The notes under the pieces: model-generated
Told to the model about the DNA's origin: nothing
Database searches by the model: none
Seen by the model: the letters and a program-made list of their open reading frames with translations, nothing else
Position numbers and translations under genes: made by a program
Shown: positions 11,608-40,287 of the stretch, piece by piece
How the letters are laid out: each line of letters opens with the position of its first letter
Position numbering within the stretch: position 1 is the first letter of the stretch
Assembly (NCBI GenBank): GCA_012800435.1
Contig: JAAZJH010000012.1
Coordinates: 1-40,287, forward strand
Source: Clostridiaceae bacterium
GTDB lineage: Bacteria > Bacillota > Clostridia > Saccharofermentanales > DTU023
Direction of reading: 5' to 3'
Length of the DNA: 40,287 nucleotides

Positions 11608-14600
11608 TTAGTTGGTGCCGATATTTAGTGGTCGTCCTTCATAGCTCATCGTATTGATAGGTGTCACCTTACCATTCCTAATCTCACAGACTTTCCAAAG
11701 GGTGCCTTCTTGGTACGGCACATCAAAGCTTATCGGTTCACTATCGCCTTCAAAGTAGACAAGGACTGTGGCATCAGAATTTGCGAGAGCATAGGATCCC
11801 CTTTGCTTCGCCGTGTTTGTAAAATCATGCACATAAACCGTATAGACGACATCTTTTTCCGGGGACGATAAAATGACGGCTTCCGGACCATAACCGAGGT
11901 CACTGTCTGCTTCTACCCATGCATCAGGGTAGTCGGGATTTCCATAGTAAACATAATCGGAAAAGGCAAACAGATGGAACGGGCGTCCGTAACTTTCGAT
12001 TGGCGCAGTGACGTGAAGATCAAGATCTTCCGGTGCAGGACCCCATTCGAGGATAACGGCAATCTCTCCTTCATTCAATTCGGAGCCTAAAGGCTGAAGA
12101 TAAAATACACCTAGATCTGTGACAGCGCCTTCCTTGACGACAAAGGAGTCCACATACACCGATACGTAACCATCCGCCTCAATTGTAAAAGGCTCCATCG
12201 TTCCAGAACTCTCACCAAGCGTACCAACCCAGAAAATAAACTCTCCTTCAATCTGCGCCAACATGTCATCCGGATACGGCCAGTCAAAGTACGTGTCTTC
12301 ATAATCGGCCGGTGAACCGTCAAGCCACGTGAGATCCACAAAACTGAATGATGGTATAGGCTTTTTCGTTACGGCATCGTAAACAAAGCCCGCAAAACCG
12401 CCACAGCCTTCTCTTGGCGTGAAAGGCGTGTGACCCGGAATGCGAATAACACCGTCATCGGGATCCGGCTCAACCGGTTGCGGCTGCGGTTCCGGACCAG
12501 GGGATGTGCCCTCGCGTTTGAGGTAAACGACACCGGCATCAGTAAACAACCCCTCTTTGATATTAAAATCGCCGAGGTAAACAGAAACGTAGCCGTCAGC
12601 GTGTACCGTCAAGTCCTCAACATCACCCTCCGTTCCTTGGACATCGACAAGAATCATATATTCGCCCTGCAACTGAGCATATTTGCCCTCTGCAGGCGGG
12701 AACGTGTACTCAAAGGTGTAGTGTTCCGGTTCTCCGGTGTCAAAATCTCTATAGGAAACTTCAATCCAGAAGTCTGAGATCGGTGTTTTGGTCTCGTCAT
12801 CGTATACAAAACCGACAAATCCACCCCAGCCGTCTCTCGGGGTAAAGGGTGTATGTCCGGGAATGCGGACGACGTCCTCGCTTTCAGGCTCAAGATATAT
12901 TTTTCCCAGATCCGTGACTTCTCCGCCACGAACGGTGAATGGCGGAACCTCATAAGTTTTATAGCCTATTGCCTCGATCACAAGATCAGCGACAGTCGTA
13001 TCCTGTCCGTCTTCGGCGAGTACTCTTGTGAAGAATTCACCCATCTTTTGTGCATCGTAGGACGCAGGATACGGGTATGTATAATCGAGTGTTACTAATT
13101 CTCCGTTATGATCAGTCAAATACAAAGTAAATAATGCAATTTCACTTTTCGAATCCGCATCGCACACAAAGCCGGTAAAGCCGCCCTTGCCGCTTTCACC
13201 TCTAAACGGCGTGTGACCGGGGAACTGAAATACACCCGGTTCTCCCGGTTTGGTTGGCTGCGGCGGTCCCGGGTATGGCGTAACCGCAGGATTAGGAATC
13301 ACTTGTCCTGGCGGAAGCAGAGGAGTATCCCCCGTCTTCGCGTAGTCTGCAGAAAGCGCAGCGTTGACAACAGGAATGATATTCGTGCCGTCCGTCGTGA
13401 ATGTATCGGTTCTCTCCATTAAGATAGCCTTGACCTGAGATGCATAGTATTCAGGATGCGCGCCATAAATCAATGATGCGACACCTGCTGCCATCGGAGA
13501 GGCCATTGAAGTTCCCGATTTGAAGTCATAGCCTTGACCGGGAACCGTGCTGAAAATATCTGATCCCGGTGCGGCGATATCTATGAGGGTACCGTAGTTT
13601 GAGTAATCGGGCATACGATACGCGTACTTAATACGGTCATCGACTCCTTTGTCGAAATCGATAGGCGTATTCTCAATCGAAGCGACCATCACCGTATGTC
13701 TGCGTCCGGGATCGGTGCCCATCATAATACGGTTCATTTCGAAGTCAGCTGCATCCATTCCCTCATTACCTGCTGCTTTAAAAACGAGGAAGTCGTAGCC
13801 GAGACTTTCAAGCCTCAGACACAGATCACCATAGGCCTGTGTCTCAATCAGTTCATCTTTGCCGTCCGGTTCGGATGGATCGCTATCTCCAACACTGAAA
13901 TTGATCACACGACATCCTTGCTCAACGAGGGTCGTGAGCGTAACTTCAAGTTCAAACGATGTTGTGACGTTCCAAAGATCAAGCTCTCCTGTGTCTTCGT
14001 TAACACTCATGTGCCAATAATGATAAAAATACGGCACCGTGTTCCAGTTAACGCCTGTCGCTCCGATACCGTTATCACCCAGTTCACTGATAATACCGGT
14101 GACATGTGTTCCATGCTCTTTTAAACGGTAGTAGCGAGATCCGGGCGACTTATCGGACTTTGTGTAATAAAGCTCAAGGTCCTCAAGAGTCTCCATTGTA
14201 TATGTCGGGAAAAGATAGATCTTTGAGCGGTCAATACCAAGATCTTCGTGATCGTACTCGATACCGCCGTCAGCGACACCGATTGAAATCGGTGTAAAAC
14301 CATCGAGATCTTTCCAGACGAGCGGAGCTCGGATAACTTCCAGACCCCAATTATTGCCATCCGGATTGTTGATATCCCATGAATCAAGCTTGGCATCGTT
14401 TGTATAAAATTGTGCTTCAGAGCGTTTATAAACATAATTATATTGCGCGATCTCAACGCTCGGATGAGCACGAAGCGTTTCCAAAATTGCGTCCAATTCG
14501 GCAGAACTGACCTTGTCATAGCGAATCTGATACCGCAAGATTGACGGTATTTCACCCACGATCTTACCGCCCGTCTCAGATGCTAACTGCTCCGCGATAG

Positions 14601-15582
14601 AACGGTCACTATCCATAGTGAGTGAGATAAGTAACTCATTCGACAAACTGTCAAAATCACCCGATTTTCCAATGCGAATCTTCGATCGATCGGGCGGTGA
14701 GGAGATACCGGATGCATAGTGTAGGTTGAATGGAATGGGGTCTGATGTGCCGAACATCGTTTTCAGCGTAATATACAACGTGTGGTTACCGATCTTCGCA
14801 TTGGCATCTGAACGTGCCCACGGTCCACGTTCTTGAGACGATTTGTTGATTTTGCGGTCAAGGGAAAGTTTGGGTAGAATACCCGTTTTCTCGAAGATCC
14901 CGCCATCAATATTGTCGAGTATCTTATACGCGTCCGGATCGGTTGGATCGGAGGGATTGAGCGCGTAGCGAATCTCTCGGATCATTTGGTTCGATTTGGC
15001 TTGCAGTGACAGTTTACTGATGGTACCGTCTAATGTTTGACGAATGCCTTCGAGTCGTACTTCCGGTCGAAGAGGAAGAGAATAAATAAGAAAAGCGGCG
15101 ACCAGTGCAATTAACACACTTAATATGGACAGCCCGATAATCAAGCCTTTCTTTTTCTTCTTTCGGGGAGGTTTGACAGAAGGAGACGATTTTTGCCATC
15201 CGTCCTGCGAAGATACTTGTCCGTACGATGGAGAAGAAGTCATCGGCGATTGTGGCTGCATAGGAGGACGGTAACCCGGTTGTGGCGGAGGTGCTCCGAC
15301 CGGATATCCCGTTTGTACGGAACCAGAATACGGCGTGGAAGATTGATGACCCTGTATAAAACCAGAATACGGCGCGGGAGGTTGATGACCCTGCACGGAA
15401 GGAGATTGTGTCGGCGCCGGGGTATAATAGTCCGAGCGGATGTCACCTCTTCCGGAATCGGGCTCAGTGCTGGAAGGTCTTGGAGCTCCCTCCGGCTGTC
15501 CTTTTGATTCGATGGGTTGACCGCACATGATGCAAAAGCGTACATCATCCTCGTTTACATGCCCGCAGTTATTACACCGCAT
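11608..15582 (-). CDS. Membrane-anchored subtilisin-like (S8) protease with zinc ribbon and repeat domains
   Basis: This 1324-residue protein begins with a CxxC-x10-CxxC zinc ribbon (Cys3, 6, 17, 20). A Pro/Gln/Tyr/Ser-rich linker to about 140 and a Lys-rich stop-transfer before one membrane helix (about 146-168) follow. The remainder should lie outside the cell. The S8 domain spans about 430-730, with Asp438 (GVADGG), His490 (EHGTHVTG), oxyanion Asn606 (AAGNEG) and Ser692 (SGTSMASP). Three related modules starting with PGHTPF and containing GFVGFVYD lie at about 786-900, 905-1022 and 1046-1163. A C-terminal segment with LEWGPAPEDLDLHV resembles the YfaP/DUF2135 beta-domain. AAAGGAG precedes the ATG. 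There is no signal peptide, so the helix must act as a signal anchor. Substrate unknown. Confidence 0.93.
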   Translation of the reverse strand: MRCNNCGHVNEDDVRFCIMCGQPIESKGQPEGAPRPSSTEPDSGRGDIRSDYYTPAPTQSPSVQGHQPPAPYSGFIQGHQSSTPYSGSVQTGYPVGAPPPQPGYRPPMQPQSPMTSSPSYGQVSSQDGWQKSSPSVKPPRKKKKKGLIIGLSILSVLIALVAAFLIYSLPLRPEVRLEGIRQTLDGTISKLSLQAKSNQMIREIRYALNPSDPTDPDAYKILDNIDGGIFEKTGILPKLSLDRKINKSSQERGPWARSDANAKIGNHTLYITLKTMFGTSDPIPFNLHYASGISSPPDRSKIRIGKSGDFDSLSNELLISLTMDSDRSIAEQLASETGGKIVGEIPSILRYQIRYDKVSSAELDAILETLRAHPSVEIAQYNYVYKRSEAQFYTNDAKLDSWDINNPDGNNWGLEVIRAPLVWKDLDGFTPISIGVADGGIEYDHEDLGIDRSKIYLFPTYTMETLEDLELYYTKSDKSPGSRYYRLKEHGTHVTGIISELGDNGIGATGVNWNTVPYFYHYWHMSVNEDTGELDLWNVTTSFELEVTLTTLVEQGCRVINFSVGDSDPSEPDGKDELIETQAYGDLCLRLESLGYDFLVFKAAGNEGMDAADFEMNRIMMGTDPGRRHTVMVASIENTPIDFDKGVDDRIKYAYRMPDYSNYGTLIDIAAPGSDIFSTVPGQGYDFKSGTSMASPMAAGVASLIYGAHPEYYASQVKAILMERTDTFTTDGTNIIPVVNAALSADYAKTGDTPLLPPGQVIPNPAVTPYPGPPQPTKPGEPGVFQFPGHTPFRGESGKGGFTGFVCDADSKSEIALFTLYLTDHNGELVTLDYTYPYPASYDAQKMGEFFTRVLAEDGQDTTVADLVIEAIGYKTYEVPPFTVRGGEVTDLGKIYLEPESEDVVRIPGHTPFTPRDGWGGFVGFVYDDETKTPISDFWIEVSYRDFDTGEPEHYTFEYTFPPAEGKYAQLQGEYMILVDVQGTEGDVEDLTVHADGYVSVYLGDFNIKEGLFTDAGVVYLKREGTSPGPEPQPQPVEPDPDDGVIRIPGHTPFTPREGCGGFAGFVYDAVTKKPIPSFSFVDLTWLDGSPADYEDTYFDWPYPDDMLAQIEGEFIFWVGTLGESSGTMEPFTIEADGYVSVYVDSFVVKEGAVTDLGVFYLQPLGSELNEGEIAVILEWGPAPEDLDLHVTAPIESYGRPFHLFAFSDYVYYGNPDYPDAWVEADSDLGYGPEAVILSSPEKDVVYTVYVHDFTNTAKQRGSYALANSDATVLVYFEGDSEPISFDVPYQEGTLWKVCEIRNGKVTPINTMSYEGRPLNIGTN
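15323..15400 (-). repeat. Tandem duplication of 39 bp in the Pro-rich linker of the subtilase
   Basis: Two adjacent 39-base copies (15323-15361 and 15362-15400) differ at a few positions and encode QGHQxxxPYSG twice. The length is a multiple of three, so copy-number change would lengthen the linker without breaking the frame. Confidence 0.85.
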
Positions 15583-34861: not shown

Positions 34862-35345
34862 AATACTTTACATTAAAAAGTCAAAACAAAAAATCAAAAG
34901 ATTTTTCCAAAAAAGGACCGATCAAGTCCCCATCTACAAGACTCTTGATACCGGCACAAAGAAATAAAAGAAAAGGAGTTAAAAGAGAAGACGCTCAACA
35001 TACCTCAAATTAATTGTTTCAAGAATATCATCCGACAATTGTGAATTTCACAGAGGATAACTTTGAAAATTGAATTCATCACTAAAAAACATCAATAAAA
35101 AACACAGAAAAAACACAATCCCAGAACATAAAAAACAAATCGACTTCCTATACTGAATTTACAGGGTCAGCTCTGGATAAAAAGGCAAGGGAGCTTAATC
35201 AATTCAAAGTTCCAATTTCTGAAGTAACAAAATACTTCTCTAGGCTCTTTTCAGAACCATGACTGAAAAAGCGGTTGGTTACACCAACCCGAAGAGGATA
35301 AGAACTTCTTTCCCTTTCTAATAATAATATGGGTGAGGTATTGAA
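34862..35345. other. A-rich divergent intergenic region upstream of the repeat-protein locus
   Basis: No gene is evident. Four A6 tracts at 35084-35089, 35097-35102, 35108-35113 and 35130-35135 are spaced 13, 11 and 22 bases apart, close to helical phasing, so the DNA may be bent. A small hairpin, GGTTGG-TTACA-CCAACC (35273-35289), lies 57 bases before the secreted repeat protein. TATACT at 35151-35156 is a possible -10 without a clear -35. Confidence 0.45.
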
Positions 35346-35966
35346 ATGAAAAAGAAATCAGCTTTAGTATTCTTAACGGCACTCGTTTTGTTCTTAACCT
35401 TTACTTTCTTCCCCGTGAAAACCGAAGCGCTCTCACGGCGAGGTAACGACGAGGCAACCAAAACTAAGACAGCAAGAGCACGCATGAGCCAGATCGGACA
35501 AAGTGACGACGATTCGACCGCTAATGTAAAAAGTGAAGTGCGTGCTAGAAAAAGATTCTCCAACTTGATAAGAACGACCACTGCGAGCACCACATGCGCT
35601 AGGATGGGATACGCCGGATCCAAGGATGATTTAGACAGAGGCGTACGCAACTGCCCTAACGGTAAACAAGATCCGGAATTCTGTGTGCCTGCGCCTGATG
35701 GTTCCGGCAATCAGAACAGGTATCAAGAGAATAATCGTTTCGACGGTTCCGGAAATCCGAACGCAGGGCAAAAAAATAGAGCCAATGATGGTTCCGGCAA
35801 TCAGAACGGAAAACAGGAAAACAGACGTTTTGACGGCTCCGGGAATCCGGATGCAGGACAAGCAGATAGATCCTGTGACGGTTCCAAATGTCTGAACCCG
35901 GACTGCACTGCTACTCCAAAAAGAGACGGAACAGGAAATCGTAACCGCGGAAACTCCACAAATTAA
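35346..35966 (+). CDS. Secreted Cys-containing protein with 15-residue DGSGN tandem repeats
   Basis: The 206-residue product has a classical signal peptide (KKKSALVFLTALVLFLTFTF, cleavage probably near EALS) and no lipobox or sorting signal. A basic region to about residue 90 and cysteines in TTCARMG, NCPNGKQDPEFCVP and SCDGSKCLNPDCTATP follow. From residue 118 come four exact-length 15-residue units beginning DGSGN, alternating DGSGNQN and DGSGNPN, then two variant units (DGSKCLN, DGTGNRN). I do not recognise a family; the Asp/Gly/Asn spacing is only vaguely like calcium-binding loops. GAGG lies seven bases before the ATG. It is directly upstream of a two-component system whose sensor also carries extracellular tandem repeats. 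Confidence 0.82.
   Translation: MKKKSALVFLTALVLFLTFTFFPVKTEALSRRGNDEATKTKTARARMSQIGQSDDDSTANVKSEVRARKRFSNLIRTTTASTTCARMGYAGSKDDLDRGVRNCPNGKQDPEFCVPAPDGSGNQNRYQENNRFDGSGNPNAGQKNRANDGSGNQNGKQENRRFDGSGNPDAGQADRSCDGSKCLNPDCTATPKRDGTGNRNRGNSTN
35697..35876 (+). repeat. Four tandem 45-bp repeats in the secreted protein gene
   Basis: Units begin at 35697, 35742, 35787 and 35832, each starting GA(T/C)GG(T/C)TCCGG(C/A/G)AATC. Units 1 and 3, and 2 and 4, are most alike, pointing to duplication of a 90-base pair of units. Confidence 0.9.
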
Positions 35967-35968
35967 GC

Positions 35969-35981
35969 GACTATAATAGTC
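35969..35981 (+). promoter_or_regulatory. Palindrome containing a perfect -10 hexamer before the response regulator
   Basis: GACTAT-A-ATAGTC is a 13-base perfect palindrome whose centre is TATAAT (35972-35977). It starts three bases after the repeat-protein stop codon and could be an internal promoter with an overlapping operator for the two-component genes. The -35 region (GGAAAC) is poor. Confidence 0.4.
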
Positions 35982-35991
35982 TAATGTAGAG

Positions 35992-36020
35992 GGGCATAGA
36001 TAATTCTATGCCCTTGTTAT
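35992..36020 (+). terminator. Hairpin between repeat-protein gene and response regulator (partial terminator)
   Basis: GGGCATAG (35992-35999) pairs with CTATGCCC (36006-36013) around a six-base loop, followed by TTGTTATT. The weak T-tract suggests attenuation: high expression of the secreted protein, lower of the regulator genes. Confidence 0.5.
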
Positions 36021-36034
36021 TCGCGGAGGTAGAT

Positions 36035-36727
36035 ATGACCAAATTACTCATCGCAGAAGACAACGAACAGATTACTGAAGTCGTACGCACTTTTGCAGAA
36101 AAGGAAGGAATGGCCGTTGATGTCGCCCATGACGGTCAACAAGCCTTAGACCTTTTTTATAAAAATGATTACGACTTAATCCTCTTAGACATCATGATGC
36201 CCAAGCTGGACGGATATCAGGTAATAAAAAGAATCAGGCAAGAATCGCTCGTACCGGTTATCTTCTTGACGGCTAAGGGTGAGGACTATGAGCGGATCAT
36301 GGGCTTAGATTACGGAGCCGATGATTATATTGTTAAGCCCTTTTCTTTAGGTGAATTAATGGCACGGATAAGAGCTGTCTTGCGACGTATGCCAGGATCA
36401 ACTGCAGAGACAGAAGTGAAAATTGAGTTGGAGAATCTGGTACTTGACTTGGACGCTTACACCTGTACGATCAATGACGAACCTGTCCCGCTGACTGTCA
36501 AAGAATTCTCCATCCTCTACCTTATGGCAACACATGTGGGCAAAGTTTTTACACGAGACGCTATTTTAGACAGAGTTTGGGGTGACGATTATTATGGGGA
36601 TGCTCGTACCGTTGATTCACATATAACAAGGTTACGGAGCAAACTTCCCGAGAAAAGTCTTAGACAATGGGACATTGTTACGATCAGAGGCATCGGCTAC
36701 AAATTGGAAAGAAACAGCGCAAGATGA
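36035..36727 (+). CDS. OmpR/PhoB-family response regulator
   Basis: The 230-residue regulator has a receiver domain with the acidic pocket AEDNEQ, phosphoacceptor Asp52 in LILLDIMMPKLDGY, Thr79 (VIFLTAKG) and Lys101 (YIVKPFSL). A winged-helix DNA-binding domain follows from about 130 to the end, with LTVKEFSILYLMATHVGKVF, ARTVDSHITRLRSKL and IRGIGYKLE. I start it at MTKLLIAED because GGAGG lies five bases upstream. Its stop overlaps the sensor kinase start by four bases. The likely targets are the adjacent envelope genes, by inference. Confidence 0.95.
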   Translation: MTKLLIAEDNEQITEVVRTFAEKEGMAVDVAHDGQQALDLFYKNDYDLILLDIMMPKLDGYQVIKRIRQESLVPVIFLTAKGEDYERIMGLDYGADDYIVKPFSLGELMARIRAVLRRMPGSTAETEVKIELENLVLDLDAYTCTINDEPVPLTVKEFSILYLMATHVGKVFTRDAILDRVWGDDYYGDARTVDSHITRLRSKLPEKSLRQWDIVTIRGIGYKLERNSAR

Positions 36728-38427
36728 AGTCGCGAATTCTAAAAAAAGTTCTGATCTATTTCTTACTTATACTTCTTCTGTTTGCTCTTTTAATAGGGCT
36801 TCTTTTCTTCCGTTTAGGACAAAAAAGCATCAATGAAGCTTCGCTGAAAATGGCAGAGAGCAGGGCAAAAAACATTGCTGCTTCTCTGACATCTTTTCTT
36901 TATAGTGATCCCTTTATAGATCTTGCTCCGAATAATGATAACGAAACAGAATCAGGAAATGTAGGGCAGGATTCGAGTCAAGGAAATAAAGGATCAAATT
37001 CAAGTCGAGGAAATAAGGGTTCTGATACAGAACAGAGCAAAGGGCAAGGCAAGGGCAGTCTGCCGGATACTCAGGGAGAGAGCAATCGACCGGATTCTCA
37101 GGGAGAAAGTAACCGACAGAATCCTCAGGAAGATAGTAACCGATCGGATTCTCAAGGAAAAAGCAATCGACCGAACTCTCAAGTTGAGAGCAATCGACAA
37201 TACCAAAAGCCTCAAGGCCAAGGTCATCGTTTTATCGCTTGGATGAACACTCTCTTGTCAACGAACATACAGATCGTAGTCGATACTGATGATAAAGCGT
37301 TTCCGATGAACATCGAGACAATTTTAAAAAGCGAACTGCCTGAAGAAGAACAAGACATGATCGACAAAGCTCTGCAAGGTGAGTCTGTTTCCCTACTTAA
37401 AGGCATAATAGTCCGCGAAGATGCGTTAATTCTGGCGGCAACGCCTCTATACGATGCGGATGGTTATATTACGGCATGTTTGCTATTAAAAGAAAATACC
37501 ACTGTCCCCTCAGTTTTACGAGCTGAAGCACAGCGCCTTTTCCTCATCTCTATCGGAATAGCCGCCCTTTTTGTATTTGTATTAGCGATCTTCTTAACAC
37601 ACAGATTGCTTAGACCTTTACGCAGAATTCAACTTGTGACACAAGAACTCAGTGCCGGCAATTACAATGTGCGAACAGAAATTTTCCAACGCGATGAACT
37701 GGGTGATTTGGCTAAAGATGTAGACGTACTGGCACTTAGGCTTGAAGAAGCTAAAAAGGAATCTGCCTACCTTGATCGATTGCGCGATGACTTTATATCG
37801 AGCATGTCTCACGAACTAAAAACGCCCGTAACTGTGATTAAATCTTCGACAGAGGCTTTGCAACAAGGATTGATCGCCGAAGAGACGAGGCAAAGCTATT
37901 ACGATGTTCTGTATCAAGAAATCAGTTTGTTGGAAAGACTTATCCAAGATTTAACAGATTTGAATGTTCTACGCAATGAGAAGTATCCCCTACAACAGGA
38001 AGAACTTAATGTATTCGATGTCCTAAGAGACGCTGTTCGCTCACAAAGACTTCTTGCTCGTGAAAAAGATATTACTCTAGAAGACAAGATTGCGGAAGAA
38101 ACGTTATATTTTCAAGGTGATTACGCTCGGATAAGACAGATGTTTGTAATTGTGATAAATAACGCAATTAAATACTCCGTGCCCGGCAGTCAAGTTCGGA
38201 TTGACTTTTCCGGATCTGATAAAGTTTTGAGCATAATGAATTGGGGAAAAGAACTCAGACCGGAGAGTCTTTCTCGGATTTTTGAGCCGTTCTACCGAGA
38301 TAAAAATACGAAAGAAAAGGGCGTCGGCTTGGGATTGTCAATTGCCAAAGAAATTGCCGATAGACACGGTCTTAAAATAGATGTAAGCTCCGGCGCCGGA
38401 GAAACGATTTTTTCTTTCCATTTCTAG
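36724..38427 (+). CDS. Sensor histidine kinase with repeat-rich extracellular domain
   Basis: The 567-residue kinase has a membrane helix (about 9-31), an extracellular region (32-270) and a second helix (271-292). Then come a HAMP domain (LRRIQLVTQELSAGNYNV, DELGDLAKDVD), HisKA with phosphoacceptor His363 (ISSMSHELKTPVTVIKSS) and an HATPase domain (NNAIKYSVPGSQ, EKGVGLGLSIAKEIADRHGL). The extracellular part contains an 80-90-residue hydrophilic stretch of Gly, Ser, Asn, Gln and Asp, including five 9-residue repeats (about 113-157). A folded, PAS/Cache-like segment follows (IQIVVDTDDKAF, GIIVREDALILAATPLYDAD). Coupled translation with the regulator indicates a cognate pair. Confidence 0.93.
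   Translation: MKSRILKKVLIYFLLILLLFALLIGLLFFRLGQKSINEASLKMAESRAKNIAASLTSFLYSDPFIDLAPNNDNETESGNVGQDSSQGNKGSNSSRGNKGSDTEQSKGQGKGSLPDTQGESNRPDSQGESNRQNPQEDSNRSDSQGKSNRPNSQVESNRQYQKPQGQGHRFIAWMNTLLSTNIQIVVDTDDKAFPMNIETILKSELPEEEQDMIDKALQGESVSLLKGIIVREDALILAATPLYDADGYITACLLLKENTTVPSVLRAEAQRLFLISIGIAALFVFVLAIFLTHRLLRPLRRIQLVTQELSAGNYNVRTEIFQRDELGDLAKDVDVLALRLEEAKKESAYLDRLRDDFISSMSHELKTPVTVIKSSTEALQQGLIAEETRQSYYDVLYQEISLLERLIQDLTDLNVLRNEKYPLQQEELNVFDVLRDAVRSQRLLAREKDITLEDKIAEETLYFQGDYARIRQMFVIVINNAIKYSVPGSQVRIDFSGSDKVLSIMNWGKELRPESLSRIFEPFYRDKNTKEKGVGLGLSIAKEIADRHGLKIDVSSGAGETIFSFHF
37060..37194 (+). repeat. Five tandem 27-bp repeats in the sensor kinase gene
   Basis: Each unit encodes nine residues following the pattern R-P-D/N-S-Q-G-E-S-N. 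All keep the frame. Upstream, GNKGS occurs twice in a looser repeat (about 36985-37020). Confidence 0.85.
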
Positions 38428-38491
38428 GGTTTACGGCAACAATCAAAATAGAACAGAAGAGGATTTTGAGAAGTTTGCGAGGTGACATTTT

Positions 38492-39139
38492 ATGAAAACA
38501 ATACATTTTTTTAGTCTCTTGTTAGTTATCGTGATGGTCATTGGCTTTGCCCTATTCGGCTGCAATAAATCACCTAGTCCATCCAGTCCGCCTAGCTCAT
38601 CTGAACTGCCTTTCGAAGCTCTTTACCTTGGCAACAATTTATTCGTCATCACGAAAACCTCTGAGGAAACTTCTGTAAACCTTCATCTGCCTCTAGTTGC
38701 ACACTTTGATAGCCAACAAGAGATTCAAGTCGGAGATGCCGTGGCCTTAGCCTTTGATGAAATAATGGAATCTTTTCCGGCACAAGCAAAAATTACTGCG
38801 TCGGAAAAACTGCCGCAAGAAACCAAAGCTTATACGGCATCCTTTAATTTAGCCTATCAGCTGCTTCAGATTCGTCCTGACAAAACCCATCTTATAGACG
38901 TGAGAACTATAGATGAGTTCGAGTCGGGTCATGTGCCGGATAGCATCAACATCCCCGTCGATCAAATCAACGATATTGTAGATAGCATACCGGATCTCGA
39001 CAGCACTCTCTTAATCTACTGCCGTAGCGGTCGCCGCACCGTTACCGCTGCACGAGCACTCATAGATTTAGGATACAAGGTCATTTTCGACTTAGGCGGA
39101 ATCTCTAACTATGAAGGCGACTTAGAAAAAGGTAGATAG
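38492..39139 (+). CDS. Lipoprotein with C-terminal rhodanese domain
   Basis: The 215-residue product has a lipoprotein signal peptide with lipobox LFGC (Cys24), then a Ser/Pro linker. An unrecognised beta-rich region (about 40-110, EALYLGNNLFVITKTSEETS, VGDAVALAFDEI) precedes a rhodanese domain (about 115-213) with LIDVRTIDEFESGHVPDSIN and the active-site loop CRSGRRT (Cys177). It should sit on the outer face of the membrane, where a rhodanese could handle sulfane sulfur or act as a thiol-binding module. GAGGTGA precedes the ATG. The gap from the kinase is 64 bases with no clear terminator, so cotranscription is likely. Confidence 0.9.
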   Translation: MKTIHFFSLLLVIVMVIGFALFGCNKSPSPSSPPSSSELPFEALYLGNNLFVITKTSEETSVNLHLPLVAHFDSQQEIQVGDAVALAFDEIMESFPAQAKITASEKLPQETKAYTASFNLAYQLLQIRPDKTHLIDVRTIDEFESGHVPDSINIPVDQINDIVDSIPDLDSTLLIYCRSGRRTVTAARALIDLGYKVIFDLGGISNYEGDLEKGR

Positions 39140-39486: not shown

Positions 39487-40287
39487 ATGAAGTATCGTAT
39501 ATCTATGCTTTGTTTAGCATTCGTTATCTTCGGATGCGTCCTAGCGGGCGGGTGCATAGACCTGACCGTTGTTCCATCATCTCCTTTAACCGATCCTTCA
39601 CCGACGGCATCAACAAAAAATTCGATACTACATTTACCCAAGATAACTATATATGAGCCCATGACAACCACTAGAACTGAAGAGACAACAACCACGCAGA
39701 TGATAACATCAAGTAAAACAACGACGATACCGCCAACGACAACAAGGACAACCACGATAACAACCACACCACCAACAACCACACCACCAACAACCACACC
39801 ACCAACAACAACTACTACTACAACAACGACTACGACTACAACGACAACTAAGACGACGACAACAACATCAACTACAAAAGAGACGACAACGACAACACCT
39901 AAAACAACAACAACGATCAAGACCCCCCCGGGGGGCTATGTGCAAAGCTATGAGGATGAAGTACTTGTCATATTAAACAAAGCGCGTGTGGAAAAAGGAT
40001 TGCATCCACTAGTCATGAATGAATCTTTGCGAGCATCAGCGCGTGTGCGAGCCGTAGAGATTATCGAATTATTTGACCACAAGCGGCCTGACGGCAGTTC
40101 CGCAACGACCGTCGTTGCCATACCATGGTCTTATTTCGGTGAGAACATTGCTGCCGGCCACCCTAATCCAATAAGTGTCTATAACGCTTGGAATAAATCG
40201 GCGGGTCATCATAGGAATATGTTCTACGAGAATTTCCGCAAAATTGGAATAGGCTGTTATCGAATCAATAATCTTCACTATTGGGTA
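39487..40287 (+). CDS. CAP/SCP-domain lipoprotein with threonine-rich linker, cut by window edge
   Basis: The 267 visible residues start MKYRISMLCLAFVIFGCVLA, a signal peptide with two candidate lipidation cysteines (FGC at 17, AGGC at 23). A linker follows in which nearly every residue from about 59 to 146 is Thr, with TTTPP and Lys interspersed. The CAP/SCP domain (from about 152) has LNKARVEKGLHPLVMNESLR, ARVRAVEIIELFDHKRPDGS, the ligand histidines in FDHKRP and KSAGHHRNM, and FGENIAAGHP. CAP proteins are secreted and diverse in function. TTTGGA is the only weak upstream binding site. A C7G6 tract at the linker/domain junction (39923-39935) could be a slippage site. The C-terminus is missing. 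Confidence 0.9.
   Translation, partial: MKYRISMLCLAFVIFGCVLAGGCIDLTVVPSSPLTDPSPTASTKNSILHLPKITIYEPMTTTRTEETTTTQMITSSKTTTIPPTTTRTTTITTTPPTTTPPTTTPPTTTTTTTTTTTTTTTKTTTTTSTTKETTTTTPKTTTTIKTPPGGYVQSYEDEVLVILNKARVEKGLHPLVMNESLRASARVRAVEIIELFDHKRPDGSSATTVVAIPWSYFGENIAAGHPNPISVYNAWNKSAGHHRNMFYENFRKIGIGCYRINNLHYWV
39661..39922 (+). repeat. ACA/ACC-rich low-complexity tract coding for poly-threonine
   Basis: The tract is built mainly of Thr codons ACA, ACC and ACG with ACACCACCAACAACC recurring three times near 39766-39809. The opposite strand yields an artificial valine-rich reading frame. Such linkers often span peptidoglycan in lipoproteins. Confidence 0.8.

Follow-up and report, generated by a model that had tools for sequence, protein, structure and literature searches.

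The secreted repeat protein SEC and the two-component pair that follows it, the response regulator RR and the sensor kinase HK, form a conserved unit in which SEC carries the system's predicted binding site. Comparative sequence analysis establishes this unit, together with its predicted promoter box, a hairpin and an extracellular sensor domain (Table 1). We consider it probable that these genes make up a self-regulated two-component system comparable to SaePQRS or CpxP, the main target of which is a secreted accessory protein that would tune the sensor or relieve the stress that is sensed. The initial annotation of the window (the whole 40,287-nucleotide stretch that was analysed) had described four genes, for SEC, RR, HK and a rhodanese lipoprotein (RHO): all four are present, with the coordinates and orientation originally given, and Pfam backs the assignment of an OmpR-type regulator, a HAMP/HisKA/HATPase kinase and a rhodanese domain.

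Table 1. Features of the SEC locus, in window coordinates.
Feature	Position	Strand	Remarks
Predicted RR box, direct repeat ACACA-N6-ACACA	35102..35120	+	half-sites 35102-35106 and 35113-35117
Putative -10 element TATACT	35149..35154	+	found by eye
SEC: secreted, Cys-containing DGSGN-repeat protein, predicted disordered	35346..35966	+	
SEC-RR intergenic hairpin, candidate partial terminator	35990..36015	+	z -3.35; covariation
RR: OmpR/PhoB-type response regulator	36035..36727	+	start corrected from 36008
HK: sensor kinase; two TM helices, disordered G/N/Q/S linker with 9-aa repeats, PAS/PDC-like ectodomain, HAMP, HisKA, HATPase	36724..38427	+	
RHO: lipoprotein, DUF3221-like part and rhodanese domain, CRSGRR active-site loop	38492..39139	+	
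CAP/SCP (YkwD-like) lipoprotein, Thr-rich linker	39487..40287	+	next gene after RHO; runs off contig

RR combines a receiver with a winged-helix domain and HK a HAMP-HisKA-HATPase series (Pfam), an architecture that places them among OmpR/PhoB-type two-component systems. None of the four genes reaches a curated cut-off in NCBIfam, and named two-component equivalogs (WalKR, PhoPR, Cpx and others) score far under theirs (WalK, 180 vs 725; YycF, 216 vs 340). Two translation starts were revised. The RR start at 36008 falls within the hairpin; the ATG at 36035, preceded by GGAGG (36025-36029), is the likely start. HK begins at 36724, not 36667, in an ATGA overlap with the RR stop codon. The CAP/SCP lipoprotein gene (39487-end) is a fifth member of the locus and continues a gene order that is conserved in the relative G011; a CAA-type trinucleotide array at 39734-39914 encodes its Thr-rich linker.

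When SEC was used as a single-sequence query against 59 genomes (the window's own, G000, and 58 relatives), full-length matches were confined to G000 and G011, with weak matches in G044 and G052; a profile search recovered five copies in 4 of the 188 genomes of the order. G011, for which the matching public MAG is Clostridiaceae bacterium AS22ysBPME_250, keeps the order SEC-RR-HK-RHO-CAP, and G044 and G052, which belong to another family than the window's, keep SEC-RR-HK with no RHO beside the pair. The three-gene order is thus held in four genomes of two families, though SEC identity drops to 30-36%. Of the four-gene order originally proposed, it is RHO that does not hold: it adjoins RR-HK only in the two genomes of the window's genus that carry this SEC type, and its close relatives stand alone in G041, G049 and G052. 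RHO was therefore rejected as a core member and the unit is defined as SEC-RR-HK; in the window's genus the operon has probably gained RHO and CAP as envelope genes at its downstream end. The further idea that the rhodanese handles SEC thiols likewise finds no support from co-occurrence, because RHO is not adjacent to the pair outside the genus. Its active-site loop (CRSGRR here, CRSGxR in four RHO proteins) conforms to the CxxGxR pattern of single-domain rhodaneses, and rhodanese activity is predicted. In G011 the start codon of the rhodanese gene (L053:3699-4335) is out of frame near homopolymers, reflecting either a frameshift or an assembly error.

That RHO does not stay with the pair speaks for another explanation, in which the four genes are simply a chance neighbourhood with no regulatory link. 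We regard that explanation as scarcely credible: order, box and hairpin are conserved in two families, and the association is missing for weakly related kinases.

G052 offers two further observations. Its second SEC copy (L055:5429-5851, C6) lies about 15 kb from the kinase gene, with large surface-type proteins encoded between them; an exact box of its own accompanies it, as does a hairpin that resembles a terminator and has a T tract. The kinase gene itself (L056:6915-8501) is broken by an in-frame TAG and is either a pseudogene or subject to an assembly error.

When the DNA upstream of the five SEC copies is aligned, a near-invariant block, ACACAnAAnAAACACAAnC, stands out, and TATACT is kept in four of the five promoters, 28 bp past the box. 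The ACACA half-sites are spaced 11 bp apart, which is the spacing expected of OmpR-family dimers. SaeR exemplifies this arrangement (PMC5083920). The exact 19-nt pattern has five matches in the 188 genomes of the order, one ahead of each SEC copy; since the pattern was derived from those same five sites, their recovery was expected, and the informative result is that there are no further exact matches. One-mismatch matches in these genomes are scattered, like those of the reversed control.

The geometry ACAYA-N6-ACAYA, applied strictly, stands before 16 of 19 order-level secreted genes, where 0.05 would be expected from the rest of the loci; these upstream regions had, however, already served to define the box before it was counted in them. 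We also applied a matrix trained on the order loci to 12 class-level loci outside the training set, the upstream regions of which had been inspected beforehand yet were left out of matrix building. The best site lies at -68 to -89 from the gene start in 10 of these 12 loci, and region-wide P is <0.07 in 8 and <0.02 in 6; the test fails at L117 and L130 and gives weak results at L129 and L119, and at L122 the gene start is uncertain. Taken at the level of sequence, control of SEC by the regulator is well supported, and we infer that RR binds the predicted box. Also of interest is that in G030 and G036 (L079, L081) the 11-bp box occurs on the opposite strand too, in at least one case facing the divergent RR gene; this suggests regulation of the RR-HK pair itself.

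In four loci, the stretch between SEC and RR gives a more stable fold than shuffled sequence does. The hairpin covaries over five: both partners have changed in three pairs, and pairing holds in 98% of cells. Its T tract is short and the terminator scan returned no entry for it; the conserved hairpin may cause partial termination between SEC and RR.

SEC itself is marked as a real gene under purifying selection by its divergence from the G011 relative (dN 0.24, dS 1.24), and constraint is stronger in the repeat half (0.18 vs 1.34). The tandem repeats described for SEC and HK are genuine, that of SEC having a 90-bp period (35696-35861). No Pfam family matches the protein: the DUF2680 domain (PF10925) is not detectable, and neither is the LTXXQ family of CpxP and Spy, SEC being predicted disordered rather than helical (pLDDT 43, from a shallow alignment of five sequences). 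All SEC proteins carry DPxxCVP, exactly or in a close variant, as well as a [KR]-R-D-G-T-G-x-x-R motif at the C terminus, which reads KRDGTGxxR in the window's SEC. We set aside EF-hand-like calcium binding by DGSGN, a resemblance by eye, and ruled out a generic polycation, the pI of the partner proteins spanning 4.2 to 11.4.

Tandem DGSGN units under purifying selection, the LRDGSG repeats of G030 and G036 and the conserved C-terminal KRDGTG would all be in keeping with a role for SEC as the source of short, repeated DG[ST]G peptides, cut from a precursor, that signal to HK from outside the cell (autoinduction), and the gene layout would then yield positive feedback. We think this very unlikely, given that in many class-level partners a DUF2680 body bears just one DG[ST]G motif and that the conserved locus includes neither a processing enzyme nor an exporter.

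In HK, a 27 bp x5 repeat encodes part of the extracellular linker (37063-37198, + strand). The initial annotation had stressed that secreted protein and sensor both bear repeats; both tracts exist, but the case for a match between the two is weak. The kinase repeat is confined to the window's genome (the G011 kinase, 77% identical, has a short G/Q/N-rich linker at that position), and the compositional match between linker and secreted protein is slight (23 pairs, p about 0.02, uncorrected for kinship). A lock-and-key relation between the repeats was rejected on these grounds. What most family members do have in common is a linker of low complexity. The model of the HK ectodomain has a confident PAS/PDC-like core together with flanking helices, and the linker that these surround, about 100 residues long, is modelled at low confidence. 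The best Foldseek matches of the ectodomain model are PAS domains (E about 1e-3), with the sensor domains of CitA and WalK lower down, and a sequence search against solved structures returned no match. As modelled, HK is an extracytoplasmic PAS/PDC sensor, with a PAS-like sensing fold between its two TM helices.

A profile of this ectodomain finds it in 24 of the 188 genomes of the order and in 45 of 393 sampled in the class; almost every order genome that has the system has a single copy. Many of these sensors adjoin a small secreted protein of another kind, characterised by DG[ST]G motifs or by a DUF2680 domain: RARDGSG/DGTCPYYETREERRE proteins in genomes of the window's genus, DTDGDG-repeat proteins in G024 and G027, DUF2680-like bodies with LRDGSG repeats in G030 and G036, and, in the wider class, DUF2680/CDG[ST]G proteins. 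In a uniform scan, adjacent secreted DG[ST]G proteins accompany 14 of 24 order-level loci (a fifteenth hit, the GalE-like epimerase at L080, was false); at class level they accompany 11 of 23 kinases with close ectodomains and 0 of 17 with weak ones. Conversely, when 30 DUF2680 loci were sampled, a 3-kb stretch contained an RR or HK motif in 15; neighbours were counted by motif, and a few of the loci are identical to places from the kinase search. The secreted partners vary widely in sequence and in pI, and often cannot be aligned with one another; a single conserved contact surface is therefore not favoured.

In the kinase tree, the SEC-type kinases group together across the two families in a single clade (99/99), which excludes the kinases of four further genomes from the window's genus. 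This cross-family clade, and the presence of almost always one copy per genome, suggest that the SEC-RR-HK cassette has been exchanged between families, although differential loss may account for the pattern instead. In G546, which has a sister kinase, a signal-peptide protein rich in Lys/Asn/His/Gly is encoded two genes upstream (L113:870-1295), and a cation/proton antiporter-like gene sits between it and the related RR-HK; the latter may hint at an ionic signal.

SEC could instead be purely an effector (an envelope, metal or matrix protein) that is made in response to HK-sensed stress and makes no contact with HK, like the Spy and ZraP outputs. That the partners differ in sequence and charge yet have the promoter box in common fits such a role, as does the second SEC copy of G052, which is distant from the kinase gene and yet is preceded by a box. 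On the other hand, the tight, recurring adjacency to one sensor clade suggests more than regulation, an argument tempered by the fact that co-location is common for direct targets too. On balance we hold a pure effector to be possible, though doubtful.

In the account that we favour, a self-regulated system with an accessory protein, HK would sense an extracellular condition through the PAS/PDC-like ectodomain on its disordered linker and then phosphorylate RR. Phosphorylated RR would bind the 11-bp direct repeat and strongly activate SEC; the hairpin would pass part of this transcription into RR-HK, so that much SEC and little kinase is made. Once secreted, SEC would exert its effect extracellularly; the likeliest target would be the HK ectodomain or linker, with SEC in the role of a feedback or co-sensing partner. 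Such contact we infer by analogy with SaeP, CpxP and HbpS.

The nearest working model is SaePQRS of Staphylococcus aureus, in which an exported accessory gene likewise comes first, followed by regulator and kinase (PMC5083920); CpxP and HbpS are other exported partners of kinases (PMC4160245, PMC4991794). The strong first promoter of SaePQRS has direct repeats for its own regulator, of the GTTAAG-N6-TTTAA / GTTAA type (PMC5083920), and these have an 11-bp period, as at SEC. A comparable layout, with an 11-bp-period box upstream of RR-HK, is present here, and autoregulation is predicted. There are also differences: SaeP is a lipoprotein that works with the membrane protein SaeQ, the SaeS extracellular linker is short, the box sequence is unlike that of the window, and an internal P3 promoter takes the place of the hairpin (PMC5083920). 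No gene for a SaeQ-type membrane protein lies between SEC and RR, and the locus is not assigned to SaePQRS.

CpxP-CpxAR of Escherichia coli also ties an exported accessory protein to a PAS-type sensor (PMC4160245, PMC11078701), and some class-level partners have small DUF2680 domains that recall it; CpxP, in contrast to SEC with its predicted disorder and lack of a Pfam match, is a folded LTXXQ protein of the periplasm. HbpS-SenS-SenR of Streptomyces provides a Gram-positive case of a secreted protein that modulates a sensor kinase (PMC4991794), but HbpS is a folded haem-binding octamer (PMC3754957) and the parallel with SEC is one of proposed role, with no similarity shown. With the DUF2680 proteins, half of whose sampled Clostridia loci adjoin two-component genes, several partners have CDG[ST]G in common; the domain is present in several divergent partners, not in SEC.

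Among open-access papers on DUF2680, DG[ST]G and repeat-secreted two-component systems, we found no description of this family. The locus sets secreted low-complexity and DUF2680 proteins, which are almost absent from the literature searched (a single paper mentions DUF2680), in a genomic context, supplies a predicted binding site and a circuit open to test, and offers a case of a regulatory site that is better conserved than the protein under its control. A bolder interpretation, which we judge unlikely, is that of an undescribed, Clostridia-wide sensor class: a secreted DG[ST]G protein, disordered and quick to evolve, and the disordered kinase linker would co-evolve as signal and receptor. 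Families would exchange the pair as a cassette, with a promoter box that stays conserved while the secreted protein changes beyond recognition.

Elsewhere in the window, positions 11608-15582 encode a 1324-aa protein with zinc-ribbon and subtilase domains.
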